Shown in pieces: positions 2,449-63,093 of a stretch of 64,000 bases of DNA. The stretch covers positions 124,001-188,000 of the forward strand of contig NZ_RBID01000016.1 of NCBI RefSeq assembly GCF_003633895.1. The letters run 5' to 3'. This stretch comes from Vogesella indigofera (GTDB lineage Bacteria > Pseudomonadota > Gammaproteobacteria > Burkholderiales > Chromobacteriaceae). Position 1 is the first letter of the stretch. The number at the start of each line of letters is the position of its first letter. The notes below the pieces were generated by a model that worked only from the letters and a program-made list of their open reading frames with translations, was not told the DNA's origin and did no database searches. A program made the translations under genes and the position numbers.

Positions 2449-3231
2449 ATGCTTGACACCCTCAGCCCCGATGTCCTGCTCCGTCAGGCACTCGGGGCTT
2501 TGTTTTTTCCGCCGCTGAACGGGCTGTTGTTGCTGCTGGCCGGCGGCTACTGGCAGCGGCGGGCACCGGCGGCCGGCCGCTTGCTGTTGCTGCTGGCGCT
2601 GCTGTTGAGCTATCTGCAGGCGACGCCATGGCTGGCGATGCGGCTTAACGGCGCGCTGGAAACGTTTGCGCCGGCCACGCTGGCGCAGGTACGCACGACC
2701 GGCGCCATCGTGGTGCTCGGCGGCGGCCAGCGGCCGGCGCCGGAGTATGCGGCCAACGTGCCGTCCGGCGACAGCCTGGCGCGGCTGCGCTATGGCGCCT
2801 ATCTGGCGCGGGCCAGTGGCCTGCCATTGCTGCTGACCGGCGGTGCCCCCAACGGTGGCGAGGCCGAGGCGGTGGTGATGGCGCGCGTGCTGCAGCAGGA
2901 TTACGGCATCACCCCGCGCTGGGTGGAAGCCGCCGCGGAAACCACCGCCGACAATGCCCGCCTGTCTGCCGCGCTGCTGCGCGAGGCCAAGGTTGGCCGC
3001 ATCACGCTGGTGACGCAGGCGTGGCACATGCCGCGCGCGCTGCCGTCGTTCCGTGCCGCCGGCCTGCAGGTGCTGGCGGCGCCGACCGGCTATAGTCGTT
3101 ATGACGGCATCTGGCTGCAGCACTGGCTGCCGAGCGGGCGTGCGATGCAGGAGGTGTATCAGGCGGAGCGCGAATGGCTGGGGCTGCTGTATTATCGCTT
3201 GCGTTCCCTCATCACAGGATTAAGCACATGA
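2449..3231 (+). CDS. DUF218 (YdcF/ElyC-type) membrane-anchored protein
   Basis: A 260-residue protein of the DUF218 family, which in E. coli includes SanA, YdcF and ElyC and is linked to envelope integrity. Two hydrophobic N-terminal segments (roughly residues 18-35 and 43-62) are followed by a DUF218 domain: AIVVLGGG near residue 85, LLTGGAPNGGEAEA, then ETTADNA and the QAWHMPRA motif near the end. I chose the ATG at 2449 because the upstream in-frame codons do not look like this family; the ribosome site is weak. The stop overlaps the next start (ATGA). An exact copy of the 13-bp dispersed repeat at 2989-3001 is read as KVGR. No substrate is known for this subfamily. Confidence 0.85.
   Translation: MLDTLSPDVLLRQALGALFFPPLNGLLLLLAGGYWQRRAPAAGRLLLLLALLLSYLQATPWLAMRLNGALETFAPATLAQVRTTGAIVVLGGGQRPAPEYAANVPSGDSLARLRYGAYLARASGLPLLLTGGAPNGGEAEAVVMARVLQQDYGITPRWVEAAAETTADNARLSAALLREAKVGRITLVTQAWHMPRALPSFRAAGLQVLAAPTGYSRYDGIWLQHWLPSGRAMQEVYQAEREWLGLLYYRLRSLITGLST
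2989..3001 (+). repeat. Dispersed 13-bp repeat, exact copy inside the DUF218 gene
   Basis: AAGGTTGGCCGCA in the sense direction of the gene, read in the phase K-V-G-R. This is the only exact genic copy in the window using this phase. Confidence 0.85.
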
Positions 3232-3986
3232 ACATCGGCGCGCTGATCATCGGAGACGAACTGTTGTCCGGCAAACGCCAGGACAAGCACATGCCGGTGC
3301 TGATCCGCCTGCTGGCGGAACGCGGCATGAAACTGGCCTGGGTCGAGTACCTCGGTGACGATCCGGCGCGCATCGAGGTGGCGCTGCGTCGCGCTTTCGC
3401 CAGCGGCGACCTGGTGTTCAGCTTCGGCGGCATCGGCGCGACGCCGGACGACTACACCCGCGCCTGTGCTGCCCAGGCGCTGGACGAGGCGCTGGAGATC
3501 CACCCCGAGGCGAAGCAGCTGATCGAAGGCCGCTTTGGTGCCGACGCCTATCCGCACCGCATCAATATGGGCCGGCTGCCGGCCAGCGCGCGGCTGATCC
3601 CCAATCCGGTCAACCAGATGCCGGGCTTTTCCTGCCGCGATGTGCACTTCGTGCCCGGCTTTCCCAATATGGCGTGGCCGATGGTGGCGTGGGTGCTGGA
3701 CACGCAGTACCGGGCGCTGTTTTCCGAGCACCCGGACGTGGAGCAGGGCTGCATCGCCATCGAGGCGCGTGAGGGCGACCTGATCACGCTGATGCAGGAA
3801 TTCGTGGCGCGCTATCCGGCGCTGCGTTTCTCCAGCCTGCCCAATTTCGGCACCGACGCCATTCCGCAGATGCACATCGAATTCGGCTTCAGTGGCCAGC
3901 CGGCGCTGGTGGCGATGGCACTGGACGAGTGGCGCAAGGCGCTGCTGGCCAAGGGTTACGAGGTGCGCGACAAGCCGGCGAGCTAG
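3228..3986 (+). CDS. CinA-type competence/damage-inducible protein, molybdopterin-binding (MoCF) domain only
   Basis: A 252-residue protein with the MoCF/CinA N-terminal fold: IGDELLSGKRQD at the start and the nucleotide-loop motif GGIGATPDDYT at residues 67-77. Full-length CinA proteins carry a second nicotinamide-nucleotide amidase domain; that domain is absent here, as is common for the shorter paralogue in betaproteobacteria. A role in competence is therefore only suggested by name. The start ATG at 3228 follows AGGA and overlaps the previous stop (ATGA). The gene ends about 75 bp before a perfect 21-bp hairpin built from two copies of the dispersed repeat. Confidence 0.88.
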   Translation: MNIGALIIGDELLSGKRQDKHMPVLIRLLAERGMKLAWVEYLGDDPARIEVALRRAFASGDLVFSFGGIGATPDDYTRACAAQALDEALEIHPEAKQLIEGRFGADAYPHRINMGRLPASARLIPNPVNQMPGFSCRDVHFVPGFPNMAWPMVAWVLDTQYRALFSEHPDVEQGCIAIEAREGDLITLMQEFVARYPALRFSSLPNFGTDAIPQMHIEFGFSGQPALVAMALDEWRKALLAKGYEVRDKPAS

Positions 3987-4061
3987 CTGCTGCGGTGCTG
4001 GCCGGCTAACGGCCGATGCGGATAACGCGGGGCGGCGCCACTGACCCGTGCGCCGCGACAA

Positions 4062-4109
4062 GACAAAAGGTTGGCCGCAAGCGGTGATGCTTGCGGCCAA
4101 CCTTTTGTC
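4062..4109. terminator. Perfect 21-bp hairpin made of two opposed 13-bp repeats
   Basis: Stem arms 4062-4082 and 4089-4109 pair perfectly around a 6-base loop; each arm contains an exact 13-bp repeat (4067-4079 and 4092-4104). It lies between convergent genes (CinA-like and nadC). The outer AAAA/TTTT pairs give a short U-run in both directions, so it probably acts as a bidirectional terminator. Confidence 0.8.
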
Positions 4110-4143
4110 GTTGTGGCGTAGGGCGCCGGCAGGCGCCGGTAGC

Positions 4144-6155: not shown

Positions 6156-6199
6156 AAAGCAATGCGGCCAACCTTGTCCAAGGTTGGCCGCATTGCTTT
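6156..6199. terminator. Perfect 20-bp hairpin made of two opposed 13-bp repeats
   Basis: Arms 6156-6175 and 6180-6199 pair perfectly around a 4-base loop (GTCC). Each arm holds an exact 13-bp repeat (6163-6175 and 6180-6192), with loop and repeats oriented opposite to the hairpin at 4.06-4.11 kb. It separates the convergent MAPEG gene and murB, and AAA/TTT ends favour termination in both directions. Confidence 0.8.
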
Positions 6200-10753: not shown

Positions 10754-11235
10754 CCCTGGCGGTGATTGCGCTGGGCAGCAATCTGGAAAATCCGGTGCAA
10801 CAGGTGGAGGCGGCGCTGCAAAGGTTGGCCGCATTGCCGGCCACGCGGCTGGTGCGCCGTTCCGCCTGCTACCGCACCGCCCCGGTCGGTTTCGCCGATC
10901 AACCCGATTTCATCAACGCGGTGTGCGAAGTCGACACCTCGCTGGATGCCGAAGCGCTGCTGGCGCAGCTGCTGCAGCTGGAACAGGACTTCGGCCGCGT
11001 GCGCAGCTTCCGCAACGCACCGCGGGTGCTGGACCTCGACCTGCTGCTGATGGACGGCGTCACGCGCGACAGCGAGTTTTTGACGCTGCCACACCCGCGC
11101 ATGCACGAGCGTGCCTTTGTGATGCTGCCGCTGGCGGAAATGGCGCCCGAGCGGCAGTTGCCGCAGGGCCGGGTCAGCGACATCGCCGCTGCGCTCGACG
11201 GCAGCGGTGTCAGCCGCCTGCCACGCAGTAAATAA
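10750..11235 (+). CDS. folK: 6-hydroxymethyl-dihydropterin pyrophosphokinase (HPPK)
   Basis: Transfers pyrophosphate from ATP to 6-hydroxymethyl-dihydropterin in folate synthesis. Of 161 residues, GSNL is at 9-12, PRVLDLDLL with the magnesium-binding aspartates D95 and D97 at 91-99, and HPRMHERAFV from 115. The start is a GTG at 10750 overlapping the pcnB stop by 3 bases. A dispersed-repeat copy (10821-10833) encodes RLAA inside helix 1. It sits in a run with the deoxynucleoside kinase and panBCD, linking folate and pantothenate genes as in many relatives. Confidence 0.95.
   Translation: MTLAVIALGSNLENPVQQVEAALQRLAALPATRLVRRSACYRTAPVGFADQPDFINAVCEVDTSLDAEALLAQLLQLEQDFGRVRSFRNAPRVLDLDLLLMDGVTRDSEFLTLPHPRMHERAFVMLPLAEMAPERQLPQGRVSDIAAALDGSGVSRLPRSK
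10821..10833 (+). repeat. Dispersed 13-bp repeat, exact copy in folK
   Basis: AAGGTTGGCCGCA read as R-L-A-A (codons AGG TTG GCC GCA), giving the uncommon arginine codon AGG in a high-GC gene that otherwise uses CGN. Confidence 0.85.
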
Positions 11236-14643: not shown

Positions 14644-14669
14644 CCTTGCGGCCAACGTTGGCCGCAAGG
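14644..14669. repeat. 26-bp perfect palindrome of two overlapping repeat variants
   Basis: Two copies of the 13-bp word with AACGTT at the centre overlap head to head (14647-14659 and 14654-14666), giving a perfect palindrome extended by CC/GG. It begins 3 bases after the rraA stop and precedes the conventional terminator. Confidence 0.8.
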
Positions 14670-15383: not shown

Positions 15384-16976
15384 TCAGCTGAAGCGGTTGG
15401 TAATCGGGTAGCGCCAGTCCTTGCCGAAGCCGCGATGGGTGATGCGTGGGCCGACCGGCGCCTGGCGACGCTTGTATTCGTTGATCTTCAGCAGGCGCAC
15501 CACCTTGGCCACGTCGGCCTCGGCAAAGCCGGCCTTGACGATGTCGGCGGCGGACTGGTTGTGCTCGACGTAGCGTTCCATGATCGCGTCCAGCACGTCG
15601 TACGGGGGCAGACTGTCTTGGTCTTTCTGGTCGGGGCGAAGTTCCGCCGACGGCGGTCGGGTGATGATGCGTTCCGGAATGATCTCGCCCTGGGTGTTGC
15701 GCCAGCGGCACAGCGCGAATACCAGCGTCTTGGCCACGTCCTTCAGCACCGCGAAGCCGCCGGCCATGTCGCCGTACAGCGTGCAGTAGCCGGTGGCCAT
15801 CTCCGACTTGTTGCCGGTGGTCAGCACCAGCTTGCCGGACTTGTTGGACAGCGCCATCAGCAGCGTACCGCGGATGCGTGCCTGCAGGTTTTCCTCGGTG
15901 GTGTCGGCCGGGAGGCCGGCAAACGACGGCGCCAGCGCGTTCATGAAGCTTTCGTACATCGGCCAGATTTCGATCTCGTCGTACTTCACGCCGACGCGCT
16001 GCACCATGTCGCGGCTGTCGTCGACGCTGATGTCGGCGGTGTAGCGTGACGGCATCATTACCGCGTGCACCTTGTCGGCGCCCAGCGCATCGACCGCGAT
16101 GGCCAGCGTCAGCGCGGAGTCGATGCCACCGGACAGACCCAGCAGCACGCCGGGGAAGCTGTTCTTGACTATGTAGTCGCGCACGCCGACCACCAGTGCG
16201 CGGTACGCGCTCTCCAGTTCGTCCGGCAGCGGTGCAAGGTTGGCCGCAACGATGTCGCCATCCACCACATCCAGCAGCAGCAGTTCGTCGTCGTAGGCGG
16301 CGGCCTGCGCCACCACTTCGCCGGCCTTGTTCAGCGCGAACGAGGCGCCGTCGAACACCAGTTCGTCCTGGCCGCCGGTGAGGTTAACGTAGGCCATCGG
16401 CAGACCGGTTTCCTGCACCCGGTAGCGCATCACCTCATGGCGGGTGGCGATCTTGTTGAGGTGGAACGGCGACGCGTTCAGCGACACGATGACCTCGGCG
16501 CCGGCATCGGCGGCTTCGGCAGCCGGCTCCACCGACCAGCCGTCCTCGCAGATGATAATGCCGACCTTGACGCCGTTCTGCTCGAACACCAGTGGCGCGG
16601 CGCCGGGAGTGAAGTAGCGGCACTCGTCGAACACTTCGTTATTGGGCAGCAGCATCTTGTGGTACTGGCCCAATCTATGGCCATCCCGCAGCACGGTGGC
16701 GGCGTTGAAGCGCTCGTGGCCGAGGCGGGCAGGGTGGCCGATCACCAGCGTGATGCCGTCCAGCATTTCCAGTTCGTCGAGGCCGGCGTAGATGGCGCGG
16801 TAGAAGTGTTCGCGCAGCAGCAGGTCTTCCGGGCTGTAGCCGGTCAGTGCCAGCTCCGGCGTGACCAGTACGTCGGCACCCTGTGCCATGGCCGTCTTGG
16901 CCAGCTCGAGGATTTTGCGGGTGTTGCCGGCGATGTCGCCGACAACCGGGTTGAACTGGGCAAGTGCAATGCGCAT
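15384..16976 (-). CDS. nadE: Glutamine-dependent NAD+ synthetase
   Basis: Last step of NAD synthesis: amidates deamido-NAD using glutamine and ATP. The 530-residue two-domain form is present: an N-terminal glutaminase (nitrilase fold) with the E41, K107, C143 triad (C143 in IICEDGW), then a synthetase domain with the P-loop LSGGIDSA at 281-288. The ATG at 16976 gives the usual MRIALAQFNP start; a GTG four codons earlier is possible. A dispersed repeat at 16236-16248 encodes AANL in the linker between the domains. Confidence 0.96.
   Translation of the reverse strand: MRIALAQFNPVVGDIAGNTRKILELAKTAMAQGADVLVTPELALTGYSPEDLLLREHFYRAIYAGLDELEMLDGITLVIGHPARLGHERFNAATVLRDGHRLGQYHKMLLPNNEVFDECRYFTPGAAPLVFEQNGVKVGIIICEDGWSVEPAAEAADAGAEVIVSLNASPFHLNKIATRHEVMRYRVQETGLPMAYVNLTGGQDELVFDGASFALNKAGEVVAQAAAYDDELLLLDVVDGDIVAANLAPLPDELESAYRALVVGVRDYIVKNSFPGVLLGLSGGIDSALTLAIAVDALGADKVHAVMMPSRYTADISVDDSRDMVQRVGVKYDEIEIWPMYESFMNALAPSFAGLPADTTEENLQARIRGTLLMALSNKSGKLVLTTGNKSEMATGYCTLYGDMAGGFAVLKDVAKTLVFALCRWRNTQGEIIPERIITRPPSAELRPDQKDQDSLPPYDVLDAIMERYVEHNQSAADIVKAGFAEADVAKVVRLLKINEYKRRQAPVGPRITHRGFGKDWRYPITNRFS
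16236..16248 (+). repeat. Dispersed 13-bp repeat, exact copy in nadE
   Basis: AAGGTTGGCCGCA on the plus strand, antisense to nadE, which reads it as A-A-N-L in the linker (IVAANLAPLP) between the glutaminase and synthetase domains. Confidence 0.85.
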
Positions 16977-17121: not shown

Positions 17122-17212
17122 GGAGAGGTGGATGAGTGGTTGAAGTCGCACGCCTGGAAAGCGTGTTCAGGGTAATACCCTGACGGGGGTTCGAATCCCC
17201 CTCTCTCCGCCA
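17122..17212 (+). tRNA. tRNA-Ser(GGA), copy 1
   Basis: Class II tRNA with a long variable arm, 91 nt including the encoded CCA (17210-17212). Acceptor stem GGAGAGG pairs with TCTCTCC (one G-U), discriminator G73, anticodon GGA at 17156-17158 within CTGGAAA, variable arm TTCAGGGTAATACCCTGA, T-loop TTCGAAT. Reads UCC and UCU. Confidence 0.97.
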
Positions 17213-17260: not shown

Positions 17261-17351
17261 GGAGAGGTGGATGAGTGGTTGAAGTCGCACGCCTGGAAAG
17301 CGTGTTCAGGGTAATACCCTGACGGGGGTTCGAATCCCCCTCTCTCCGCCA
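17261..17351 (+). tRNA. tRNA-Ser(GGA), copy 2
   Basis: Identical over all 91 nt to the copy at 17122-17212, including the CCA end (17349-17351) and anticodon GGA. A 48-nt spacer separates the two, so they are probably cut from one precursor ending at the hairpin just downstream. The spacer shows no promoter of its own. Confidence 0.97.
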
Positions 17352-19027: not shown

Positions 19028-19340
19028 GCTGGTTCGACAGGTAAGGATCGGATGGTTGCGGCCAACCTTGATGCGCTGGCGGCAAGGTTGACCGCAAGTG
19101 GAGAGCTTGCTTCAGTTGCAGAACATGAAATCGTTCGGTTGGTCATGCAGCAGCCGACCCGGGCAGGACGCCACTTGCATGGCTACTCCATATATAGGGT
19201 GGCAAACGCTGCGAACAGTGACAGCGAGGTCGCCTGCGGGACGGCTGCAGTTGCGCCACGCACATCACGCAGGGCCGATGCGCTTGGCAGACGGGCGCGG
19301 CCACGATTGTCGCAGTTTTGCCGGCTGCGGACGAGGGCGG
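19028..19340. other. 313-bp intergenic region with an imperfect repeat pair
   Basis: No gene is supported here. The region holds one exact 13-bp repeat (19057-19069) and an opposed copy with one mismatch (19084-19096, GACC for GGCC), which could form a hairpin. The rest is unassigned. It presumably contains the yigZ promoter, but I cannot point to convincing boxes. Confidence 0.6.
19057..19096. repeat. Opposed pair of 13-bp repeats (one imperfect)
   Basis: Exact copy TGCGGCCAACCTT at 19057-19069 and AAGGTTGACCGCA at 19084-19096, separated by 14 bases. Arms pair over 13 bp with one mismatch. Unlike the hairpins at 4.1 and 6.2 kb, this one is upstream of yigZ rather than between convergent gene ends. 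Confidence 0.7.
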
Positions 19341-20190: not shown

Positions 20191-23100
20191 ATGCAGTTTC
20201 AGGCATTCGCGCGCAAACAAACCGCACTCCGTGACGCCATTACGGCAGCCTATCGCCGTGACGAGCAGGCTTGCGTCAAGACACTGACCGCCGAGGCGCA
20301 GATGTCGTCCGAGCAGGTGACCTCGGTCAAGACCCTGGCCGCCAAACTGGTTTCGAAAGTGCGCAGCGAGCGCACCAAATCCAGCGGTGTTGATGCGCTG
20401 ATGCATGAGTTCTCTCTCTCCAGCCAGGAAGGCGTGGCGCTGATGTGCCTGGCCGAAGCGCTGCTGCGCATCCCGGACCGCGTTACCGCCGATCGCCTGA
20501 TCCGCGACAAGATTTCCGGCGGCGACTGGAAGTCCCATCTGGGCAACAGTTCCTCGCTGTTCGTCAACGCCGCCGCCTGGGGCCTGCTGGTCACCGGCAA
20601 GCTGGTGTCGTCGCACAGTGCGCACGGCCTGTCCTCGGCCCTGACCCGCCTGATCGCCAAGGGCGGCGAGCCGCTGATCCGCAAGGGTGTCGATCTGGCG
20701 ATGCGTATGCTGGGCAAGCAGTTCGTGACCGGCGAGACCATCGACGAGGCACTGGTCAACGGCCGCGAGCGCGAAGCCAAGGGCTACCGCTTCAGCTACG
20801 ACATGCTGGGCGAAGCGGCGATGACCGAGGCCGACGCACAGCGTTACCTGCGTGACTACGAAGTCGCCATCCACGCCATCGGCAAGGAATCCAATGGCCG
20901 CGGCATTTACCAGGGCCCCGGCATCTCGGTGAAGCTGTCGGCAATCCACCCGCGTTACGTGCGCATGAAACACGAGCGGATGATGGCGGAACTGCTGCCA
21001 CGTCTGAAACAGCTGTTCCTGCTGGCCAAGCAGTACGACATCGGCCTTAACATCGACGCCGAAGAAGCCGATCGTCTGGAGATCTCGCTGGACCTGATCG
21101 AAGCGCTGGCCAATGATCCGGATCTGGACGGTTTCGAAGGTATCGGCATCGTGGTGCAGGCCTACCAGAAGCGTTGTCCGTACGTGATCGACTACCTGAT
21201 CGACCTCGCCCGCCGCAGCAAGCACCGCTTCATGGTGCGGCTGGTGAAGGGTGCCTACTGGGATGCCGAGATCAAGCGCGCCCAGGTCGACGGCCTCGAC
21301 GGCTACCCGGTGTACACCCGCAAGGTCTACACCGACGTGTCCTACCTCGCCTGCGCCAAGCGCCTGCTGGCGGCACAGGACGCGATCTATCCGCAGTTTG
21401 CCTCGCACAACGCCTACACCCTGTCCGCGGTGTACCACCTTGCCGCCGGCAAGGACTACGAATTCCAGTGCCTGCACGGCATGGGCGAGAGCCTGTACGA
21501 CCAGGTGGTCGGTGCCGACAACCTCGACAAGCCGTGCCGCATCTACGCGCCGGTCGGTTCGCACGAAACCCTGCTCGCTTACCTGGTGCGCCGTCTGCTG
21601 GAGAACGGGGCCAACTCCTCGTTCGTGAACCGCATCGTTGACGAGAGCGTGTCCATCGACGAGCTGGTGGAAGACCCGGTCGCCGAAGCACTGCGCCAGG
21701 GCGGTGAGCCGCATCGCAAGATCACCCTGCCACGAACCCTGTACGGTGCCGAACGTCTCAACTCGCTGGGCATGGACCTGTCCAACGAGCATGTGCTGCA
21801 ACAACTGAACGACGCGCTGAATGCCGGTGCCGCGCAGAGCCTGCACCTGAAGCCGATGTTGGCCGCAGGCCCGCTGAGCGAAGGCGTGGCGCAGAACGTG
21901 CTGAACCCGGCCAACCTGCAGGACGTGGTCGGCACCATCCAGGAAGCCAGCGCCGCCGATGTCGAGCTGGCCTTGCAGCAGGCAGTATTGGCTGCGCCGC
22001 AATGGGCCGCCACCGCGCCGGCCGAGCGCGCCGCCTGCCTGGAACGCATGGCTGACCTGATGGAACAGCATATGGCCACCCTGATGGGGCTGGCCGTGCG
22101 CGAAGCGGGCAAGACCTTTGCCAACGCCATCGCCGAAGTGCGTGAGGCGGTCGACTTCTGCCGTTACTACGCGGCACAGGTGCGTCGTGAGTTCGACAAC
22201 CAGACTCACCCGGCACTGGGTCCGGTGGTGTGTATCAGTCCGTGGAACTTCCCGCTGGCGATCTTCATCGGCGAAGTGGTGGCCTCGCTGGCCGCCGGTA
22301 ACGTGGTGCTGGCCAAACCGGCCGAGCAGACCGCGCTGATCGCCGGTTTTGCCGTGCAGCTGCTGCATCAGGCTGGCGTGCCGGCCGGTGCGCTGCAGTT
22401 CCTGCCGGGCCGTGGCGAAGTGGTCGGCGCCGCGCTGACCCGCGACGAGCGCGTCAAGGGTGTGATCTTTACCGGCTCCACCGAGGTGGCACAGCTGATC
22501 AACCGTACCCTGGCCAAGCGCAGCGGCGAAGTGCCGCTGGTAGCCGAAACCGGCGGCCAGAATGCGATGATCGTCGACAGCTCGGCGCTGCCGGAGCAGG
22601 TGGTGGCCGACGTGATGTCGTCCGCCTTCGATTCCGCCGGCCAGCGCTGCTCGGCGCTGCGCGTGCTGTACCTGCAGCAGGACATCGCCGACAAGGTCAT
22701 CACCATGATCAAGGGCGCGATGGACGAGCTGCGTGTCGGCAACCCGGCGCTGCTGGAAACCGATATCGGCCCGGTGATCGACGCCGAAGCGCAGCAGGGC
22801 CTGCTGCGTCACATCGACAGCATGAAAACCAAGGCGCGCGACTGCTACCAGGCGCGGCTGACGCCAGAGTGTGCCGACGGCACCTTCGTGGCGCCGACCC
22901 TGTTCGAGATCGACAGCGTCAGCCTGCTGCAACGCGAGGTGTTCGGTCCGGTGCTGCACGTGATCCGCTTCTCGGCGCAGGATATCGACCGCGTGGTGGA
23001 TGAAATCAATGCCACCGGCTACGGCCTGACCCACGGCATCCACAGCCGCATCGACGAATCCATCGACAACATCGTCGCCCGCATCAAGGTCGGTAACGTC

Positions 23101-23805: not shown

Positions 23806-23818
23806 TCAGACTTGCCTG

Positions 23819-41281: not shown

Positions 41282-41301
41282 TTCAGGTCGTTGCAGGCGC
41301 G

Positions 41302-43278: not shown

Positions 43279-43298
43279 TGCGGCCAACGTTGGCCGCA
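43279..43298. repeat. 20-bp palindrome of two overlapping repeat variants
   Basis: TGCGGCCAACGTTGGCCGCA, perfect, identical to the palindromes at 61426-61445 and 62793-62812 and to the core of 14644-14669. It lies between livH and the inverted-repeat element. Confidence 0.8.
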
Positions 43299-44251: not shown

Positions 44252-46230
44252 GCGGCCTCCTTGGCGGTGGCGGGGAAGGTCTTGGCGTCGCGGATTTTCA
44301 CCGTAGCGCGGATGTTGCCGCTGCGGCCGTCCTCGAACTTCACCTGTGCGTCGATGGTGCAGTCGCGCGCGTCGCTGTTGAGAGCCGCGATCAGCGGCGC
44401 GTAGCGTTCGGCGATGAACTTGCGGCGTACCTTGCGGGTGCGGGTCAGCTCGCCGTCGTCGGCGTCCAGCTCCTTGTGCAGGATCAGGAAGCGCTTGATC
44501 TGGCTGCCGGCCAGCCGCGGGTCGGTGGCGAGGTCGGCGTTCATCTTCTCGATGCACTCGCGGATCAGCTCGTACACCGGCTCCTGGCCGGCGAGGTCGG
44601 TGTAGCCGGTGTAGGCGAGGCCGCGTTTTTCCGCCCAGTTGCCGACCGCGATCAGGTCGATGTTGATGAAGGCGGTGGCGTAGTCGCAGCCGTCGCCGAA
44701 GGCGACCACTTCCTTGATCTGCTGGAAGAATTTCAGCTTGTTTTCCAGGTATTTCGGCGCGAACAGGCTGCCGCAGTTCATGCGGCCAACGTCCTTGGCG
44801 CGGTCGATGATCTTGAGATGGCCGTCCTCGTCGAAGAAGCCGGCGTCGCCGCTGTGTACCCAGCCTTCGCTGTTGCGCGTCTCGGCGGTGGCGTCGTCGC
44901 GCTTCCAGTAGCTGTGGAAGGTGCCCGGGCCGCGGAACAGCACCTCGCCGCTGTCGGCGATCTTGACTTCCACCCCCGGCACCGGCACGCCGACGGTGTC
45001 GGGCTTGACCTTGTCGTTAGGGTGCACGCACACCATCACGTAGGCTTCGGTCTGGCCGTACAGCTGCTTGATGTTGACGCCGATGGCGCGGTAGAAGTCG
45101 AACAGCTCGGGGCCGATGGCCTCTCCGGCGGTGTAGGCGAGCTTGAGGCGGGTGAAGCCGAGCACGTTCTTCACCGGGCCGTAGACCAGCAGTTCGCCGA
45201 GCTTGTAGCCGATGCGGTCCCAGAAGCCGACCGGCTTGCCTTCCAGGATGGCGGTGCCGACGCGGCGGGCGTGATCCATGAAGTAGTGGAACATCCGGTA
45301 CTTGAGGCGGCCGGCGTCCTCCATGCGGATCATCACCTGGGTCAGCAGGTTCTCGTACACGCGTGGCGGGGCGAAGTAGTAGGTCGGCCCGATCTCGCGC
45401 ATGTCGGTCATCACCGTGTCGCTGGACTCGGGGCAGGACACGCAGAAACCGGTGACCATCGATTGTGCGTAGGAGAACAGGTTGTCGCCGACCCACGCCA
45501 TCGGCAGGTAGGCCAGCACCTCCTCGTGCTCGGTGAGGCCCTCAAGGTTGGCCGCATTGCGCGCGGTGATGATCATGCTGTCATTGGTGTGCAGCACGCC
45601 CTTGGGGTGGCCGGTGGTACCGGAGGTGTACAGCATGATGGCCGGATCGCTGCCGCGGCCGAGGTCAACCATGTTCTGGAACAGCTGCGGGTGCTCGTCG
45701 TGCTGCACGCGGCCGGCGCCGAGGATTTCGGCGATGTCGTAGAGGCCGCTGTGCTGGTAGTGACGCAGGCCGCGCGCATCGTCGTAGACGATGGCCTGCA
45801 GTGTTGGCAGGCGGTCGCGAATTTCCAGCAGCTTGTCGACCTGTTCCTGGTCCTCGACCACCGCCATCGCCACTTCGGCATCGGACAGCACGAACACCAT
45901 TTCCTCCGCCGCCGAGTCCTGGTACAGCGGCACCGGCACGCCGCCCAGACACTGCGCCGCCATGATCGCCATGTACAGGCGCGGGCGGTTGTCGCCGATC
46001 ACGGCCAGACGGTCGCCGCGCTTGAAGCCTTTGCTGGCAAGGCCGAGGGCGAGGGCGCGCACTTCGGCCGCCACTTGCTGCCAGCTCCAGGTCTGCCAGA
46101 TGCCGAGGTCTTTCTCACGCATTGCCGGGCGCGCGCCACGTTGCTGGGCATGCGCCAGCAGCAGCTTGGGGAACGTGTCTGCCGTGTGGCCATGCGCGAT
46201 GGCGGGGCGGACAGTTTCAGGCTTGGCCAT
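44248..46230 (-). CDS. Long-chain-type acyl-CoA synthetase (AMP-forming)
   Basis: A 660-residue adenylate-forming enzyme that makes an acyl-CoA from an acid, ATP and CoA. The P-loop YTSGTTGHPKGVLHTN is near residue 200, followed by AYLPMAWVGD, YGQTEAYVMV and HSGDAGFFDEDGHLKIIDRAKDVG. The length and central insert match FadD15-type enzymes found next to Liv-type importers. It is the first gene of a seven-gene operon (this gene, livG, livH, livM, binding protein, livF, PaaK-like). A LiuR site lies about 140 bp upstream. AGGAGAC precedes the ATG at 46230. Confidence 0.92.
   Translation of the reverse strand: MAKPETVRPAIAHGHTADTFPKLLLAHAQQRGARPAMREKDLGIWQTWSWQQVAAEVRALALGLASKGFKRGDRLAVIGDNRPRLYMAIMAAQCLGGVPVPLYQDSAAEEMVFVLSDAEVAMAVVEDQEQVDKLLEIRDRLPTLQAIVYDDARGLRHYQHSGLYDIAEILGAGRVQHDEHPQLFQNMVDLGRGSDPAIMLYTSGTTGHPKGVLHTNDSMIITARNAANLEGLTEHEEVLAYLPMAWVGDNLFSYAQSMVTGFCVSCPESSDTVMTDMREIGPTYYFAPPRVYENLLTQVMIRMEDAGRLKYRMFHYFMDHARRVGTAILEGKPVGFWDRIGYKLGELLVYGPVKNVLGFTRLKLAYTAGEAIGPELFDFYRAIGVNIKQLYGQTEAYVMVCVHPNDKVKPDTVGVPVPGVEVKIADSGEVLFRGPGTFHSYWKRDDATAETRNSEGWVHSGDAGFFDEDGHLKIIDRAKDVGRMNCGSLFAPKYLENKLKFFQQIKEVVAFGDGCDYATAFINIDLIAVGNWAEKRGLAYTGYTDLAGQEPVYELIRECIEKMNADLATDPRLAGSQIKRFLILHKELDADDGELTRTRKVRRKFIAERYAPLIAALNSDARDCTIDAQVKFEDGRSGNIRATVKIRDAKTFPATAKEAA
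45544..45556 (+). repeat. Dispersed 13-bp repeat, exact copy in the acyl-CoA synthetase gene
   Basis: Antisense to the gene, which reads it as A-A-N-L (ARNAANLEGLTEHE) between conserved adenylation motifs. Confidence 0.85.
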
Positions 46231-50451: not shown

Positions 50452-50478
50452 TTTTTTGAGTGGGTCGTTGTTAGGGTT

Positions 50479-50506
50479 GGCCGCAGCGCATGCTGCGGCC
50501 TTTTTT
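50479..50506 (+). terminator. Intrinsic terminator after the acyl-CoA dehydrogenase
   Basis: GGCCGCAG (50479-50486) pairs with CTGCGGCC (50493-50500), loop CGCATG, followed by TTTTTT. The left arm lies inside a one-mismatch copy of the 13-bp repeat (50473-50485), so the repeat has been incorporated into a classical terminator. Confidence 0.88.
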
Positions 50507-50520
50507 ATGGCTCAGCCGCT

Positions 50521-50533
50521 TGCGGCCAACCTT
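50521..50533 (-). repeat. Dispersed 13-bp repeat, exact intergenic copy
   Basis: TGCGGCCAACCTT 14 bp after the terminator, followed at once by another GCGGCC. It lies between convergent gene ends (acyl-CoA dehydrogenase and lrp). Confidence 0.85.
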
Positions 50534-52545: not shown

Positions 52546-53616
52546 ATGCGTCCGTTGATTGCAAGCATCCGTCTCGATCATTTTCGTCACAATTACCTGC
52601 TGGCGCGCCAGCAGCACGGCGGCCGCGCGCTGGCGGTGGTGAAGGCCAATGCCTACGGCCACGGCGCGGTGCGCTGTGCGCAGGCGGTGGCCGATGTTGC
52701 CGACGGCTTTGCCGTGGCCTGCCTGGAAGAGGCGCTGCAGCTGCGTGCAGGCGGCATTAGCGGCCCGATCCTGCTGCTGGAAGGCGTGTTCGAGCCAGCC
52801 GAGCTGGCCGAGGTGCTGGCGCACGGGCTGTGGCTGGTGGTGCAGAACCGCGAGCAGCTGGACATGCTGCTGGCGACGCCGGCCGACAAGCCGTACCGCG
52901 TGTGGCTGAAGATGGATTCCGGCATGCACCGCGCCGGTTTCTTCCCCGCCGACTACGCCGCCGCCTATCAAAGGTTGGCGGCAAGCGGCAAGGCTGACGC
53001 CATCGTCAAGATGACGCACTTTGCCCGCGCCGACGAGCCCGGCTGCGACGCCACCGCCCTGCAGCTGGCCGCTTTCGATGCCGCCACCGCCGGCCTGCCC
53101 GGCGACAGCAGTGTCGCCAACTCCGCCGGCATCATGATCCACCCGCACGCGCACCGCGACTGGGGGCGCCCCGGCATCATGCTGTACGGCTCGACGCCGC
53201 TGCCGGACGGCCATGCGGCCAACGTTGGCCTCAAGCCGGTAATGCGGCTCGCCAGCCGCGTGTTCGGCGTGCGCGAGCTGGCCGCCGGCGAGCCGGTCGG
53301 CTACGGCGCCAGCTTTGTCACCACGCGACCGACCCGTGTCGGCCTGATCGCCGGCGGTTATGCCGACGGTTATCCGCGGCTGGCGTCCACCGGCAGCCCG
53401 GTGGCGGTCGACGGCCAGCTCAGCCGCATCATCGGCCGCGTGTCGATGGACATGATCACCATCGACCTGACCGACCTGCCGCAGGCCGGCATCGGCAGCG
53501 AGGTGGAATTGTGGGGCGAGCAGATCAGCGTCAATGCCGTGGCCGCCCATGCCGGCACCATCAGCTACGAGTTGCTGTGCAATGTGAAACGGGCACACTT
53601 GCAGTATCTGGACTGA
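52546..53616 (+). CDS. alr: Alanine racemase (catabolic DadX type)
   Basis: Pyridoxal-phosphate enzyme interconverting L- and D-alanine. Of 356 residues, PLP binds K33 in VVKANAYGHG, and the second catalytic base is Y253 in GYGASF. Its position directly after dadA makes it the catabolic racemase: L-alanine becomes D-alanine, which DadA oxidises to pyruvate. It may also supply D-alanine for the wall; no other racemase gene is in the window. Imperfect dispersed repeats at 52971-52983 (RLAA) and 53214-53226 (AANV) lie inside. Confidence 0.96.
   Translation: MRPLIASIRLDHFRHNYLLARQQHGGRALAVVKANAYGHGAVRCAQAVADVADGFAVACLEEALQLRAGGISGPILLLEGVFEPAELAEVLAHGLWLVVQNREQLDMLLATPADKPYRVWLKMDSGMHRAGFFPADYAAAYQRLAASGKADAIVKMTHFARADEPGCDATALQLAAFDAATAGLPGDSSVANSAGIMIHPHAHRDWGRPGIMLYGSTPLPDGHAANVGLKPVMRLASRVFGVRELAAGEPVGYGASFVTTRPTRVGLIAGGYADGYPRLASTGSPVAVDGQLSRIIGRVSMDMITIDLTDLPQAGIGSEVELWGEQISVNAVAAHAGTISYELLCNVKRAHLQYLD
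53214..53226. repeat. Repeat variant with AACGTT in alr
   Basis: TGCGGCCAACGTT, followed by GGCC but not completing the palindrome. Read as A-A-N-V (GHAANVGLKP). Confidence 0.7.
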
Positions 53617-55048: not shown

Positions 55049-56491
55049 TCAGGCCGGTGGCGGGAGCTGGGCGCCAAGCTGCTCGCCCCACTGTTGCAGT
55101 TGTTCCAGAATCAGCAGCTGCTGCGCATCGGCGCCATCACGCAGGGTGGCGATTTCCTGCTGGAAAGCGGCAAAGGTGCGCCCCGGCGGCGTACCCAGAT
55201 GCAGCTTGCGCGCGCACCACTGCTGCCAGTGTTGACGTTCTTCCGCGCTGAGGCTGTCGGGGAAGTTGCGCGCGCGATAGCGGTACAGCAGGCGTTGCAG
55301 CTGCGGGTCGTCGAAGCTTTCGCGCGCCGCGGCCAGCGCCGGGGCCGACAGGCCGCGCAGGCGGTTGAGGGTGCGCCGGTCCTGGTTGGAGACAAAGCCG
55401 CCGTACAGGTTTTCATCGACATCCGGTGTCTCGCCCGGCTCGCGGCGGAACACCTCGCGCCACAGCGGCGCGAAATCGGGCAACGCCTGCGCGTGGGCGG
55501 CATGGCGCTGCACCGCCGCCATGTCGATGCCCAGCTGCTGCGCCCGTTCCGCGCGCAGCACGCGCAGATCGCTGATCACGAACGGCGACTTGTTGATGTG
55601 GATGCTCTTGATCGGCAGCCGGCTTTCCCCCTCCGCCAGTTCGCTGCTCTTGGTGAACAGCCGGCGGCGAACGTTGGCCGCATCCAGCGCCAGCAGTTCG
55701 CGCGGATCGTGCGCCAGATCCCAGACCAGCACCTCGTTCTTGTTGCTCGGGTGTTCCGCCAGCGGCCACACCAGCGCCAGATTGCCGCGCTCGCCACCGA
55801 ACATGCCGGAGACGTGAATCAGCGGCACCGGCTGGTGCAGCTGCAGCTGGTGGCGCACCGCATCCTTTTGCCGCAGGCTGAGGCAGAACGCGAACAGCCG
55901 CGGCTGTTTGTCACGGATCAGCCGTGCCAGTGCGATGGTGGCGCGCACGTCGGACAGCGCATCGTGGGCGGCATCGTGGGCGAGGCCGTTGGCGGCGGTC
56001 AGGTGTTGCAGCTTGAAGCTGGGCAGGCCGTTGTCGTGGCGCGGCCAGTTGATGCCTTCCGGGCGCAGCGCGTAGGTGGCGCGTACCACGTCCAGCAGGT
56101 CCCAGCGGCCGCAGCGGTTTTGCCACTCGCGGGCGTAGGGGTCGATCAGGTTGCGCCAGAACAGGAAGCGAGTGACTTCGTCGTCGAAACGGATCGAGTT
56201 GTAGCCGACGCCGATGGTGCCGGGCTCAGCCAGCTCGCGTTCGATGGCGGCGGCAAACTGCTGCTCCGGTACTCCGAGCTCGGCACAGCGCTGTGGCGTG
56301 ATGCCGGTGAGCAGGCAGGCTTCCGGCGCCGGCAGGTAGTCGCGGGCCGGCTGGCAGTACAGCATCACCGGCTCGCCGATTTCGTTGAGCTCGGCATCGG
56401 TGCGGATGCCGGCAAACTGCGCCGGGCGGTCGCTGCGCGGCACCGCGCCAAAGGTTTCGTAGTCGTGCCAGAAGAAGGTCGGGGCTGACAT
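55049..56491 (-). CDS. sbcB: Exodeoxyribonuclease I
   Basis: 3'-5' single-strand DNA exonuclease in mismatch repair and recombination. Of 480 residues, the DEDDh nuclease site starts with D10 and E12 (WHDYETFG), continues with GYNSIRFDDEVTRFLFWRN and ends with AHDALSDV; the C-terminal SH3-like and helical region has ELLALDAANVRRRLF and GGFVSNQDRRTLNRLRG. Length matches E. coli ExoI (475). GGAACC precedes the ATG. A dispersed-repeat variant at 55670-55682 encodes AANV. Confidence 0.95.
   Translation of the reverse strand: MSAPTFFWHDYETFGAVPRSDRPAQFAGIRTDAELNEIGEPVMLYCQPARDYLPAPEACLLTGITPQRCAELGVPEQQFAAAIERELAEPGTIGVGYNSIRFDDEVTRFLFWRNLIDPYAREWQNRCGRWDLLDVVRATYALRPEGINWPRHDNGLPSFKLQHLTAANGLAHDAAHDALSDVRATIALARLIRDKQPRLFAFCLSLRQKDAVRHQLQLHQPVPLIHVSGMFGGERGNLALVWPLAEHPSNKNEVLVWDLAHDPRELLALDAANVRRRLFTKSSELAEGESRLPIKSIHINKSPFVISDLRVLRAERAQQLGIDMAAVQRHAAHAQALPDFAPLWREVFRREPGETPDVDENLYGGFVSNQDRRTLNRLRGLSAPALAAARESFDDPQLQRLLYRYRARNFPDSLSAEERQHWQQWCARKLHLGTPPGRTFAAFQQEIATLRDGADAQQLLILEQLQQWGEQLGAQLPPPA
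55670..55682. repeat. Repeat variant with AACGTT in sbcB
   Basis: AACGTTGGCCGCA on the plus strand, read in sbcB as A-A-N-V (LDAANVRRRL), the same phase as the AANL copies. Confidence 0.75.
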
Positions 56492-56538: not shown

Positions 56539-56551
56539 TGCGGCCAACCTT
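56539..56551 (-). repeat. Dispersed 13-bp repeat, exact copy between divergent genes
   Basis: TGCGGCCAACCTT in the promoter region between sbcB and the PAS-GGDEF gene. It is unpaired, so terminator function is not expected here. Confidence 0.85.
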
Positions 56552-56662: not shown

Positions 56663-58381
56663 ATGACGCAGATACCGGACAAGTTGGCCACGGCGGACAT
56701 CCAGTTGCTGTTGTCGCGGCAGCAGGGGCTGCTGTGGCTGGTGCAACAGCTGCCGGACATGGCCTGGCTGAAGGATGCCACCGGGCGTTACCTGGCCTGC
56801 AATCGCCGCTTCGAGGCCTTTGCCGGCGTCAGCCGCCAGGCCATCATCGGCCAGAGCGATACCATGGTGCTGGGGCCGCAACAGGCGGCGGCACTGAGCC
56901 AGGCCGACATCGCCGCGCTGGCGGCGGAAGAGCCGTTGTCCAGCCAGCAGTGGCTGGTGTCCGCGGAAGACGGACAGCGGATCCTGCTGGAGATCGTGAC
57001 CACGCCGCTGCAGGCCGAGGACGGCGTGTTCGGCGTGCTCGGCACCGCGCGCGACATTACCCGCCAATACCTCAGCGATCTGGCCTTGCGCGCCAGCCAG
57101 GACCGTTTCCGTGCCATTTTCGAAAATACCGACGCGCTGGCGATCCAGGGCTACGCGCCGGATGGCACCGTGCTGTACTGGAATCACGCCTCGGAAGCGT
57201 TGTACGGCTATAGCGCCGCCGAGGCGCTGGGGCGCACCCTGTTCGAGCTGATCATCCCGCCGCCGGCCAGGACGCACGTCGAGGCCGAGGTGGCGTGGAT
57301 GTTCCGAGAGCGGCGCGGCGTGCCTGCCGCCCGCCTCGGGCTGCAGCACAAGGATGGCCATATCGTGCAGGTCTATTCCAGCCACGCGATGGTGGAGTCG
57401 CCGCAGAGCGGGCTGACTCTGTTCTGCCTCGATATCGACCTGACCGCGCTGGTCCGCGCCGAGGCGGCGTGGCGCGACAGCGAGCGGCGCTATCGTGTGC
57501 TGTTCGACGCGTCCGGCGACGGCATCTTCGTGCTGCACGGGCAGATCATCGTCGACTGCAACCAGGCGGCGGCGGAGATCTTTCACTGCGAGCAGGCCGA
57601 CCTGACCGGGCTGTCGCTGGAGGCGCTGTCGCCGTTGCGGCAGGATGGCGGCGTGTCGTCGCGGCAATTGCTGGGCAGCTATCTGCATCCCGACAGCGAT
57701 AGCCCGGCGCGCCGTTTCGAGTGGCGCCACCTGCGCCGCGACGGCAGCGAGTTCGACGCCGAATGGATCGTGACGGCGGTGGAAATTGCCGCAGTGCCGC
57801 ATTGCCTGGTGTCGTTCCGCGATATCACCGAAAAGAAGAAATCGGCGCAGCTGATCTGGGAGCAGGCCAACTTTGACTCGCTGACCGGCTTGCCCAACCG
57901 TCACCGCTTTCTCGACCGTTTCGCGCTGGAGTTGCGCAAGAGCGAGCGCAGCAACGGCCAGCTCGCCCTGTTGTTCATCGACCTCGACCACTTCAAGGAG
58001 GTCAACGATACCTTGGGGCACCGCGCCGGCGACCTGCTGCTGAAAGAGGCGGCACTGCGGCTGCTGGGCTGCCTGCGCGAGACCGACACCGTGGCCCGCC
58101 TCGGCGGCGACGAGTTCACCATCGTGATCAGCGACATGGACTCGGAGCAGTCGCTGGAGCGGGTGACGCAGCAGGTGCTGCAAAGGTTGGCCGCACCGTT
58201 TTGCCTTGGTGACGAGCAGGTGTACGTGTCGGCCAGCATCGGCATCACGCTGTTTCCGCAGGACGGCGACAATATCGACGTGTTGCAGCGCAATGCCGAC
58301 CAGGCGATGTACGCGGCGAAGAAGGCGGGGCGCAACGGCTACTGCTATTACGCGGCGATGCCCAGGGCCTCGCTGGCCTGA
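56663..58381 (+). CDS. PAS-PAS-PAS-GGDEF diguanylate cyclase
   Basis: Soluble sensor cyclase of 572 residues. Three PAS-like domains are visible: about 20-145 (LPDMAWLKDATGRYLACNRRF), 145-270 (FRAIFENTDALAIQGYAPDGTVLYWNHASE) and 275-400 (YRVLFDASGDGIFVLHGQIIVDCNQAA, followed by a PAC segment). The GGDEF domain follows from about 410, with DSLTGLPNRHRFLDRF and the intact active site GGDEF at 481-485. RETD five residues before it is a product-inhibition site. No EAL domain or transmembrane segment. ATG 56663 has a weak ribosome site. An exact dispersed repeat at 58183-58195 encodes RLAA. Confidence 0.92.
   Translation: MTQIPDKLATADIQLLLSRQQGLLWLVQQLPDMAWLKDATGRYLACNRRFEAFAGVSRQAIIGQSDTMVLGPQQAAALSQADIAALAAEEPLSSQQWLVSAEDGQRILLEIVTTPLQAEDGVFGVLGTARDITRQYLSDLALRASQDRFRAIFENTDALAIQGYAPDGTVLYWNHASEALYGYSAAEALGRTLFELIIPPPARTHVEAEVAWMFRERRGVPAARLGLQHKDGHIVQVYSSHAMVESPQSGLTLFCLDIDLTALVRAEAAWRDSERRYRVLFDASGDGIFVLHGQIIVDCNQAAAEIFHCEQADLTGLSLEALSPLRQDGGVSSRQLLGSYLHPDSDSPARRFEWRHLRRDGSEFDAEWIVTAVEIAAVPHCLVSFRDITEKKKSAQLIWEQANFDSLTGLPNRHRFLDRFALELRKSERSNGQLALLFIDLDHFKEVNDTLGHRAGDLLLKEAALRLLGCLRETDTVARLGGDEFTIVISDMDSEQSLERVTQQVLQRLAAPFCLGDEQVYVSASIGITLFPQDGDNIDVLQRNADQAMYAAKKAGRNGYCYYAAMPRASLA
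58183..58195 (+). repeat. Dispersed 13-bp repeat, exact copy in the PAS-GGDEF gene
   Basis: Sense, read R-L-A-A (VLQRLAAPF), again using the rare AGG arginine codon, in the GGDEF domain after the active site. Confidence 0.85.
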
Positions 58382-61257: not shown

Positions 61258-61274
61258 GCCGGGCGACGGCCATA

Positions 61275-61420: not shown

Positions 61421-61425
61421 GGCGT

Positions 61426-61445
61426 TGCGGCCAACGTTGGCCGCA
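61426..61445. repeat. 20-bp palindrome of two overlapping repeat variants
   Basis: TGCGGCCAACGTTGGCCGCA, intergenic, between the terminator and the mnmA stop. Confidence 0.8.
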
Positions 61446-61468
61446 GGCATGGGGGGTGTTAGTGGCGC

Positions 61469-62545
61469 TTACTGGATGATGCCGCCGCCGAGGCAGATAT
61501 CGCCGTCGTACAGCACGGCGGACTGACCGGGGGTGACCGCCCACTGCTTGTCGCGGAAGGTCAGCGTGGCACGGCCGTCGACGATCGGCGACAGGCTGCA
61601 CGGCGCGTCGGCCATGCGGTAGCGGTTCTTGGCGGCGTAGTCGCCGGCGGCCGGTGGCTGCGGCAGCGTCCACGACAGGTCGTCCATCGCCAGCGTCGAC
61701 TTCAGCAGCAGCGGGTGGTCATGCCCTTGCACCACGATCAGCTTGTTGCCGGGAATGTCCTTGCCGGCGACGAACCACGGCTCGCCGTTGCCATCCTTGT
61801 TGCCGCCGATATTGAGGCCCTTGCGCTGGCCGAGGGTGTAGAACATCAGCCCGACGTGCTCGCCGACGGTCTTGCCGTCCGGGGTGATCATCTCGCCCGG
61901 CTTGGTCGGCAGGTAGCGCTGCAGGAATTCGCGGAACGGGCGCTCGCCGATGAAGCAGATGCCGGTGGAGTCCTTCTTGGCGGCGGTCGGCAGCCCGGCT
62001 TCCTCGGCCAGGCGGCGCACCTCGGTCTTGCGGATGTCGCCAAGCGGAAACAGCGCCTTCGCCAGCTGGTGCTGCTGCAGGCGGTACAGGAAGTAGCTCT
62101 GGTCCTTGGTGTGGTCGACGCCCTTCATCAGGTAGTGCACGCCGTCCTGTTCCAGCTTGCGCGCGTAATGGCCGGTGGCGATGCAGTCGGCACCCAGCTC
62201 CAGCGCGTAATCGAGAAAGGCCTTGAACTTGATCTCGGCATTGCACAGCACGTCCGGATTGGGGGTGCGGCCGGCGGAGTACTCCTTCAGGAAGTAGGAG
62301 AACACGCGGTCCTTGTACTCCTTGGCGAAGTTGACGATCTCCATGTCGATGCCGACGATGTCGGCCACGCTCATCGCGTCCAGCGCGTCCTGCTTGATGG
62401 AGCAGTATTCGTCGTCGTTGTCGTCTTCCCAGTTCTGCATGAACACGCCGATCACCTCATGCCCCTGCTGCTTCAGCAGCCAGGCGGTGACCGACGAATC
62501 CACGCCGCCGGACATGCCGACGACAATACGTTTTTTACCCGTCAC
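61469..62545 (-). CDS. mnmA: tRNA-specific 2-thiouridylase MnmA
   Basis: Puts sulfur on U34 of tRNA-Lys, -Glu and -Gln. Of 358 residues, the PP-loop GMSGGVDSS is at 10-18, catalytic C101 is in [12 protein letters not shown], and C197 in STGICFIG. Length matches E. coli MnmA. The start is a GTG at 62545 that overlaps the stop of the upstream gene (GTGA), so translation is coupled. It is the last gene of a three-gene unit with a periplasmic protein and a Nudix gene; in E. coli the nudJ-mnmA pairing also occurs. Confidence 0.96.
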
Positions 62546-63093
62546 GGAGAAAATCCTTCCTTCCAAATAGCAAGAGGCACCACCACCGGCGGTGCCCCGA
62601 AATCCCGGAACCAGCTGTCGATCACCCAATCCTGGCCTGATGTCACGTCGCGCACGGCCACCGCCGCGTGATGGTCGAACAACAGTGGCGCACGGTGCAC
62701 CTGGCCCAGCAGCTGGTGGTGGCGCAGCCAGCCCTTGCCGGCCAGCAACTGCAGCAGCACCAGCACATTATGGCTGTGATCGAGACAATCCATGCGGCCA
62801 ACGTTGGCCGCATCCTCGTGATTGCCGCCGCGGTCGCTGGCAATCGGCGCCTCGCGCGCCGCGCGCTGGTAATAGGACAACACAATGTCCTGTAGTGCTG
62901 CGCGCTCATCGGCGGCTTCGGCGGCCTCGTCCAGCCGCTGTTTAAACCAGATCAGGGCAGAGTCGTCCACTTCAATGCGCTGCGTGCGATCGCAGCCGTA
63001 ATGGTAACAGAGCGTCAGCACCTCCGCATCGGCGGCCACGGCCGGCAGCGCCGCGAGCAGCGCAATCGACAGCCAGCGCATGAGGGGTGGCAT
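62542..63093 (-). CDS. Conserved periplasmic protein of unknown function, coupled to mnmA
   Basis: A 183-residue secreted protein. The signal peptide ([19 protein letters not shown]) implies export, and ATG 63081 is an alternative start to 63093. The mature part has [37 protein letters not shown] and [20 protein letters not shown]; the conserved Cys and His followed by a WxxDSWF element look like a papain/transglutaminase-type fold, which is an inference. AANVGR comes from a 20-bp repeat palindrome inside the gene. No function is known. Confidence 0.8.
62793..62812. repeat. 20-bp repeat palindrome inside a coding region
   Basis: TGCGGCCAACGTTGGCCGCA within the periplasmic-protein gene, read as A-A-N-V-G-R. 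It is the only full palindrome of this type inside a gene in the window. Confidence 0.8.

Follow-up and report, generated by a model that had tools for sequence, protein, structure and literature searches.

A dispersed word of Chromobacteriaceae genomes with the behavior of a DNA uptake sequence and a candidate ComP-type receptor

Tagging of a lineage's own DNA by short uptake words is, to our knowledge, established only in the Neisseriaceae, where the word is the DNA uptake sequence (DUS), and in the Pasteurellaceae, where it is the uptake signal sequence (USS). The neisserial DUS occurs in both orientations, and inverted pairs of it serve as terminators; the USS is an unrelated word of another lineage. 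Here we describe an abundant dispersed word in a 64-kb stretch of the genome of Vogesella indigofera (family Chromobacteriaceae; assembly GCF_003633895.1, contig NZ_RBID01000016.1, positions 124,001 to 188,000), which we call the window. The word consists of the 10-mer GTTGGCCGCA with a soft A-A-G/C flank, and its behavior in the genomes compared makes it very probable that it is a DUS-like uptake signal of the Chromobacteriaceae, read by a ComP-like minor pilin.

The DUS of the Neisseriaceae consists of 10 bases preceded by two extra ones at the 5′ side; in each of its eight dialects, positions +6 to +8 read CTG and position +10 is A (PMC3630211). The same source reports no obvious DUS in five genomes, namely Laribacter, Lutiella, Pseudogulbenkiania, and two Chromobacterium (PMC3630211, Frye et al. 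2013); Chromobacterium and Pseudogulbenkiania are at present placed in the Chromobacteriaceae. The count in 2024 was still eight dialects, and seven candidate new ones were characterized by CTG (PMC11316581). The dialect AG-SimDUS is spelled AG+GCTGCCTGAA (PMC10715097). The DD region of neisserial ComP has four cysteines in two disulfides, and the Pasteurellaceae are described as having no ComP homolog and a USS unlike the DUS (PMC4906244, Berry et al. 2016). No report of an uptake word in the Chromobacteriaceae was found in the literature searched, which was without most subscription papers and the supplement of Frye et al., in line with the earlier statement that the word is not known as a described uptake dialect. 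Frye et al. list over-represented 10-mers of the five word-less genomes in their Table S1D, and a GTTGGCCG-type word could be among these without bearing the name DUS.

The word came to attention through a sequence-only reading of the window, which presented it as a 13-mer, AAGGTTGGCCGCA, with 18 exact copies, nine in each orientation, ten of them intergenic. All 18 copies were recovered at the same positions, 9 plus and 9 minus, and our own gene calls also placed 10 of the 18 between genes. The many one-mismatch copies claimed for the window were seen as well: with up to one mismatch AAGGTTGGCCGCA has 35 sites, against a mean of 0.13 and a maximum of 1 in dinucleotide-preserving shuffles. The whole genome (G000; 3.62 Mb in 20 contigs, in which the window is C5:124001-188000) contains 960 exact copies, 489 plus and 471 minus, and the reversed word, taken as a control, 0 + 0. 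The count is therefore far from chance, and the word is not confined to the window. Under an order-3 Markov model, 0.18 copies of the 12-mer AGGTTGGCCGCA were expected in a 464-kb sample of G000 (window included), and 130 were observed.

The 13-mer is over-represented as proposed, but it is not a fixed unit. The rigid unit is the 10-mer GTTGGCCGCA, present in 42 copies in the window and 244 in the 464-kb sample (∼0.5 per kb). In the one-mismatch profile of AGGTTGGCCGCA, each substitution within GTTGGCCGCA was found in 0-3 copies (2-6 at the last position) against 130. The flank 5′ of the 10-mer is soft, with A in 77%, A in 86%, and then G in 63% or C in 33% of copies in the G000 sample. The AACGTT variant occurs at six loci of the window, as had been stated, in 10 copies; four of the loci (14647, 43279, 61426, and 62793; 8 of the 10 copies) are, however, back-to-back 10-mers, TGCGGCCAAC abutting GTTGGCCGCA. 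In the 464-kb sample, by comparison, ACGTTGGCCGCA has 74 copies and abutting pairs number only 10, which shows C there to be mostly a second choice at the soft flank.

Beyond a few bases, the flanks of the sampled copies are near background composition and unrelated to one another, so no larger repeated unit surrounds the word. This counts against a dispersed repeat resembling repetitive extragenic palindromes or miniature inverted-repeat transposable elements (REP/MITE-like). Either such a repeat or a regulator-binding site would suit the palindromic form of some copies, but we give both very little credence: Rfam at gathering thresholds yielded only two tRNAs in the window, and the divergent, promoter-bearing intergenic regions are the poorest in words.

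Abundance of the word is a property of particular lineages. Among 61 genomes of the family, AAGGTTGGCCGCA has 379-960 copies in all 13 of the window's genus (g1) and 0-7 in the other 48. The form AGGTTGGCCGMR has 88-1173 copies in 23 of the 61 genomes and at most 22 in the remaining 38; the bearers are 13/13 genomes of g1, 2/2 of g5, 2/2 of g6, 1/1 of g7, 1/1 of g9, 3/3 of g10, and 1/10 of g2. All 386 genomes outside the family (of 399 sampled in the order) have at most 20 AGGTTGGCCGMR-type copies.

Spellings were compared in samples of ∼200 kb per genome (464 kb for G000), with one genome per genus outside g1, and were found to follow phylogeny. The CA ending is abundant in 13/13 genomes of g1 and in 0/48 others, and GTTGGCCGCA is the top word in G056 and G059 (both g1). 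The top word is GTTGGCCGAG, with the ending AG, in G034 (g5) and GTTGGCCGAA, with the ending AA, in G037 (g6), G038 (g7), and G046 (g10); G010 has the AA ending at nearly all places among the matches listed. All seven word-bearing samples share the core CCG in their dialects, with substitutions there near zero. Counting the word in other Chromobacteriaceae, as the sequence-only reading had proposed, thus revealed lineage-specific endings in sister genera on the same core. The dialect words also stand well above same-letter permutations, which in G000 had a mean of 1.9 copies and were 10% intergenic; the permuted maxima in G000, G034, and G038 were 49, 6, and 6, against 244, 128, and 93 for the dialect words.

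No comparably strong word was found in the samples of the word-less genomes G002 (g2), G022 (g3), G039 (g8), and G031 with G033 (g4), the last of which reads N over ∼20 kb. A 21.6-kb record of Chromobacterium sinusclupearum (NadE 84%) contained 0 dialect 10-mers. One further word, CTGGCCGAG, is weakly enriched in word-less g2 and g3; it was set aside, as its in-frame translation is Leu-Ala-Glu and the enrichment may stem from protein sequence.

The placement of the words was analyzed with the calls of a home-made gene finder, by which 84% of the 464-kb sample is coding, slightly below the nine tenths given earlier. Intergenic DNA makes up 15.7% of the bases of that sample but contains 41% of its 244 words; 144 of the 244 lie inside genes. 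Intergenic enrichment was 1.6-3.1-fold in six of the seven word-bearing samples. Pooled over the seven genomes, there are 3.03 words per intergenic kb between convergent genes, 1.15 between tandem genes, and 0.29 between divergent genes. Inverted pairs spaced within 60 bp number 32 in the G000 sample, and 17 of these lie between convergent genes. The pairs and the single words of the window are as follows, with strands given for the single words.

4067 to 4104: inverted pair between convergent genes; a plus-strand gene ends at 3986 (molybdopterin-binding domain) and a minus-strand gene runs from 4144 (quinolinate phosphoribosyltransferase)
6163 to 6192: inverted pair between convergent genes; MAPEG gene, plus, ends at 6142 and MurB domains, minus, run from 6218; z −5.5
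14647 to 14666: back-to-back palindromic pair TGCGGCCAACGTTGGCCGCA between convergent genes; RraA-like gene, plus, ends at 14641 and LolA, minus, runs from 14717; z −4.2
61426 to 61445: back-to-back palindromic pair between convergent genes; FMN reductase gene, plus, ends at 61257 and tRNA methyl transferase domains, minus, run from 61469
43279 to 43298: back-to-back palindromic pair at the junction of two minus-strand genes; one word enters the upstream edge of a predicted gene
62793 to 62812: back-to-back palindromic pair within a predicted gene (62542-63081, minus)
23818 to 23852: inverted pair, one copy GAGGTTGGCCGCA, downstream of putA (20191-23805, plus)
50473 to 50533: inverted pair, one copy AGGGTTGGCCGCA, between convergent genes
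19057 to 19096: inverted pair of one exact and one single-mismatch word, AAGGTTGACCGCA
2989 to 3001, plus: exact word, coding
10821 to 10833, plus: exact word, coding
16236 to 16248, plus: exact word inside the NAD+ synthase gene (15384-16976, minus)
29659 to 29671, minus: exact word between convergent genes
32109 to 32121, plus: exact word, coding
37814 to 37826, plus: exact word, coding
38885 to 38897, minus: exact word, coding
41271 to 41283, minus: exact word, intergenic between tandem genes
45544 to 45556, plus: exact word, coding
53214 to 53226, minus: word with AAC flank, coding
55670 to 55682, plus: word with AAC flank, coding
56539 to 56551, minus: exact word, intergenic between divergent genes
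58183 to 58195, plus: exact word, coding

Five folds were computed at four of the window pairs, and four of the five are exceptionally stable (z −4.2 to −10.7). The pair at 4067 to 4104 forms a hairpin ending in TTTTGTC on both strands, with minimum free energies of −55.5 and −50.4 kcal/mol (z −10.7 and −10.5), and is bidirectional and terminator-like. The fifth fold, at 61426 to 61445, is unexceptional (z −1.3). Where inverted pairs lie at convergent gene ends, we infer that they have a second role in terminating transcription. The two tRNA genes of the window stand in tandem at 17122-17209 and 17261-17348 (plus) and have identical Rfam scores.

Coding words are found on the gene strand and the opposite strand at 73:71 in G000, 43:39 in G056, 59:43 in G059, 38:38 in G038, and 17:18 in G046. 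With GC skew as a proxy for the leading strand, 461 words of the seven genomes are co-oriented and 410 opposed (p = 0.09). A signal for recombination or segregation like Chi, KOPS, or matS would likewise be short, abundant, and exact, and the words of G038 taken alone do lean with GC skew (57 versus 36, p = 0.04). Such a role is nevertheless very improbable, as no significant co-orientation is seen over the seven genomes. Chi and KOPS are also not known to prefer convergent intergenic spots or to form inverted pairs; the words described here do both.

Conservation at orthologous sites was followed in two other members of g1, which are 95.3 and 94.3% identical to the window where they align; 5 and 8 of the 42 window sites were unalignable and were left out. 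The aligned words were exactly kept at 34/37 and 29/34 sites (coding, 21/23 and 17/21; intergenic, 13/14 and 12/13). Control 10-mers were kept at rates of 0.66 (coding) and 0.60 (intergenic) in the first relative and 0.63 and 0.56 in the second, and flanking 10-mers at 0.64 and 0.60 and at 0.59 and 0.51. With background rates assumed to be 0.62 and 0.57, retention of the words has binomial p values of 4e-5 and 4e-4. In the reverse direction, 34/39 and 29/33 aligned words of the two relatives are present in the window. The conservation check that had been suggested for the word therefore came out in its favor, with words retained beyond the 51-66% of control and flanking 10-mers.

The retention of coding copies bears on a rival explanation, in which the words would be mainly intrinsic terminators, dispersed as hairpin modules, with no role in uptake. 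The inverted pairs at convergent gene ends, most of the folded ones very stable, would fit this explanation. However, the pairs number only 32 among 244 words, more than half of the words lie inside genes, coding copies are kept at orthologous sites, and a terminator offers no reason to keep an exact 10-mer and one ending per genus in those copies. We therefore regard a terminator-only origin as highly improbable.

The number of words per 20 kb of G000 follows a near-Poisson distribution (mean 10.1, variance 11.5), and depletion from foreign DNA is mixed across the five longest word-free gaps (9.9-12.8 kb, some cut by stretch ends). Four of the five were scanned: one is a prophage, two have reverse transcriptase (RT)/Toprim- or KAP-type genes, and one contains lon-clpX-tig. 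The prophage genes (terminase large subunit and SU10-type portal) are at G000:C1:524567-527828 (L106:4567-7828) in a 9.9-kb word-free stretch, and a gene for a KAP-family P-loop NTPase is at G000:C1:84213-86546 (L095:4213-6546) in a 12-kb word-free stretch. Low-GC word-free DNA also holds a 2469-codon open frame at G000:C1:371917-379323 (L102:11917-19323), the first 1361 residues of which have Toprim matches and a reverse-transcriptase match below the Pfam cut-off; it is possibly a defense-type gene.

A candidate receptor was identified in G000. The open frame at C11:94160-94585 (minus) encodes a 142-residue prepilin that, judged by its sequence matches, is an ortholog of ComP. It matches Protein Data Bank (PDB) entry 2nba, which we take to be N. 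subflava ComP, over residues 40-137 and has shorter matches to 2m3k and 5hz7, both labeled ComP in the PDB. A profile of the soluble domain built from 17 family members gave 2nba (4e-19), 2m3k (3e-18), and 5hz7 (3e-17) as top PDB matches, the next being 1.5e-6 over 37 positions. Like neisserial ComP, the family protein has a type IV prepilin N terminus and a soluble domain matched over ∼100 positions, and it shares the loop K-x-(S/T)-x-x-x-WPxLP with neisserial ComP in most rows of the alignment. By eye, the frame immediately before the G000 gene resembles another small prepilin. A long match to this ComP (at least 126 of 142 residues) is present in 23/23 word-bearing genomes.

A different G000 frame, C5:200979-201236, was rejected as ComP because it matches PilE and not ComP chains at E 0.001; its neighbors are by eye fimT/pilW/pilX-like. 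This PilE-type minor pilin scores 71 bits with the family ComP_DUS (PF16732), above the 46 bits of the ComP ortholog (C11:94256-94504), and ComP_DUS matches occur in 61/61 family genomes. Automatic annotation of ComP by PF16732 would mislead.

ComEC (3e-55) and DprA (1e-75) are also present in G000, so that the check for a ComP-type pilin and competence genes returned all three. Of 14 control genomes, among them E. coli, 10 have a match to the ComEC family and 11 to the DprA family; being so common, the two permit competence but do not prove it.

Within g1, G056 and G059 have a less strict 5′ flank of the word than G000, and their ComPs are only 47 and 40% identical to that of G000. In five genomes (G000, G049, G051, G052, and G053) the 13-mer has 905-960 copies and the ComPs are 85-100% identical to that of G000, and the other eight have ComPs with 40-50% identity and 379-601 copies, the flank being softer in the two of them sampled. 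The g1 sub-dialect may follow ComP divergence. The only g9 genome, G045 (602 words), has two tandem ComP-like frames at C3:1518675-1519600.

In a tree of 30 family ComPs, from 22 of the 23 word-bearing and 8 of the 38 word-less genomes and with a midpoint root only, absence of the word requires two changes, a pattern that suggests loss and not independent gain. One word-less g8 ComP frame has an in-frame TGA, and no ComP was found in the four g4 genomes among the matches listed.

Across the order, the ComP profile matched at 1e-8 in 27 of 200 sampled genomes: 6 of the family, 4 of f44, 3 of f41, and 14, more weakly, in eight other families. We take f44 to be the Neisseriaceae because three of its four sampled genomes are rich in CTG-type words (2443-3313). 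The f41 genomes are G184, G221, and G254 (g50), two of which have three profile matches each. Neither CTG-type nor GTTGGCCG-type words are in excess in these three genomes, and f41 may hold yet another word.

The Chromobacteriaceae word resembles the DUS in several respects. Both are 10-mer units with extra 5′ bases, present in hundreds to thousands of copies in genomes that have ComP; both have lineage spellings that differ at a few positions, including A/C at +9; and both show intergenic bias with inverted pairs at gene ends. The A at +10 of the DUS is found in GTTGGCCGCA and GTTGGCCGAA, and the GTTGGCCGAG of G034 has G instead. AG+GTTGGCCGAA aligns without gaps to AG+GCTGCCTGAA, with 7/10 identities in the 10-mer and CCG for CTG. 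The word belongs to another family than the DUS and is less dense, at ∼0.5 per kb compared with the ∼1900 copies per meningococcal genome given in PMC3630211. With the USS it shares the character of an abundant, short, exact self-tag.

Several observations weigh against the word being an uptake signal read by ComP. Its core at +6 to +8 is CCG and not CTG in the seven word-bearing genomes sampled. The likeness of GTTGGCCGAA to known DUS 10-mers (best 7/10) has a permutation p of 0.02 in fixed register and 0.086 in any register or strand, and this similarity alone is only suggestive. Intergenic enrichment is little in G038 (1.2-fold). Coding words follow the gene strand in G037 (45:15) and G034 (48:29), unlike in the other five samples, a bias that may reflect codon constraint. 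Retention of coding words is modest against G049 alone (17/21 against 0.63), and the longest word-free gap, of 12.8 kb, is core DNA with lon, clpX, and tig, so that gaps are not all mobile. On the receptor side, a long ComP match is also present in at least 27 of the 38 word-less genomes (9 of g2, 14/19 of g3, and 4/6 of g8), and ComP is thus not sufficient for words. The DD-region cysteines, moreover, appear from the alignment to be missing from the family ComP: the C-terminal part has only two cysteines in 22/22 word-bearing ComPs, none aligned to the first neisserial cysteine, and the two-disulfide DD region is therefore absent.

The last two points would also suit an uptake signal whose receptor is some protein other than the ComP ortholog. 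We consider this unlikely, given that the long ComP match accompanies the word in every word-bearing genome. Lysine in the loop before WPxLP, found in 21/22 word-bearing and 0/8 word-less ComPs, argues in the same direction, but the rows are related and the correlation is a lead only.

The explanation that we prefer is recognition of the word by ComP. A type IV pilus with the ComP-like minor pilin would recognize GTTGGCCGCA-tagged DNA at the cell surface; the DNA would be drawn in via PilQ/PilT and ComEC and recombined by DprA and RecA. The roles of PilQ, PilT, and RecA in DNA uptake and recombination are established. The word would accumulate and persist because tagged DNA is taken up and recombined more often, with GTTGGCCGCA as the dialect of the window's genus and GTTGGCCGAA and GTTGGCCGAG as those of sister genera, and the inverted pairs at convergent gene ends would double as terminators. 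That ComP reads the word, and that the word promotes uptake, we infer from the pattern as a whole. The uptake role proposed in the sequence-only reading is supported by abundance, strand balance, convergent-end pairs, conservation, dialects, ComP, and ComEC/DprA. Of the genome-based predictions examined, only depletion from foreign DNA gave a mixed outcome.

On genome-level tests the words act like a DUS, but they lack CTG, and on their spelling we file them apart from a ninth dialect. Two rules stated for neisserial DUS and ComP, the CTG core and the four-cysteine DD region, appear by sequence comparison to be broken here. We lean toward a history in which self-DNA recognition by ComP predates the split of the Neisseriaceae and Chromobacteriaceae, the latter having kept a CCG word and a single-disulfide ComP, evolved their own dialects, and lost the word at least twice.

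If the word is an uptake signal, the Neisseria-type ComP system would extend to a second family with a different core spelling. Under the history outlined above, the CTG core and the DD region would be specific to the Neisseriaceae and not general hallmarks. A second ComP branch, in the G+C-rich Chromobacteriaceae, would change what counts as essential in word and receptor. DNA reading by ComP becomes testable on receptors matched with their own words, whose endings are one or two bases apart, and the word-less lineages whose sampled ComPs are without the loop lysine provide a further comparison. The findings also suggest that members of the window's genus are naturally transformable by word-bearing DNA, which, if true, would be a practical genetic tool.

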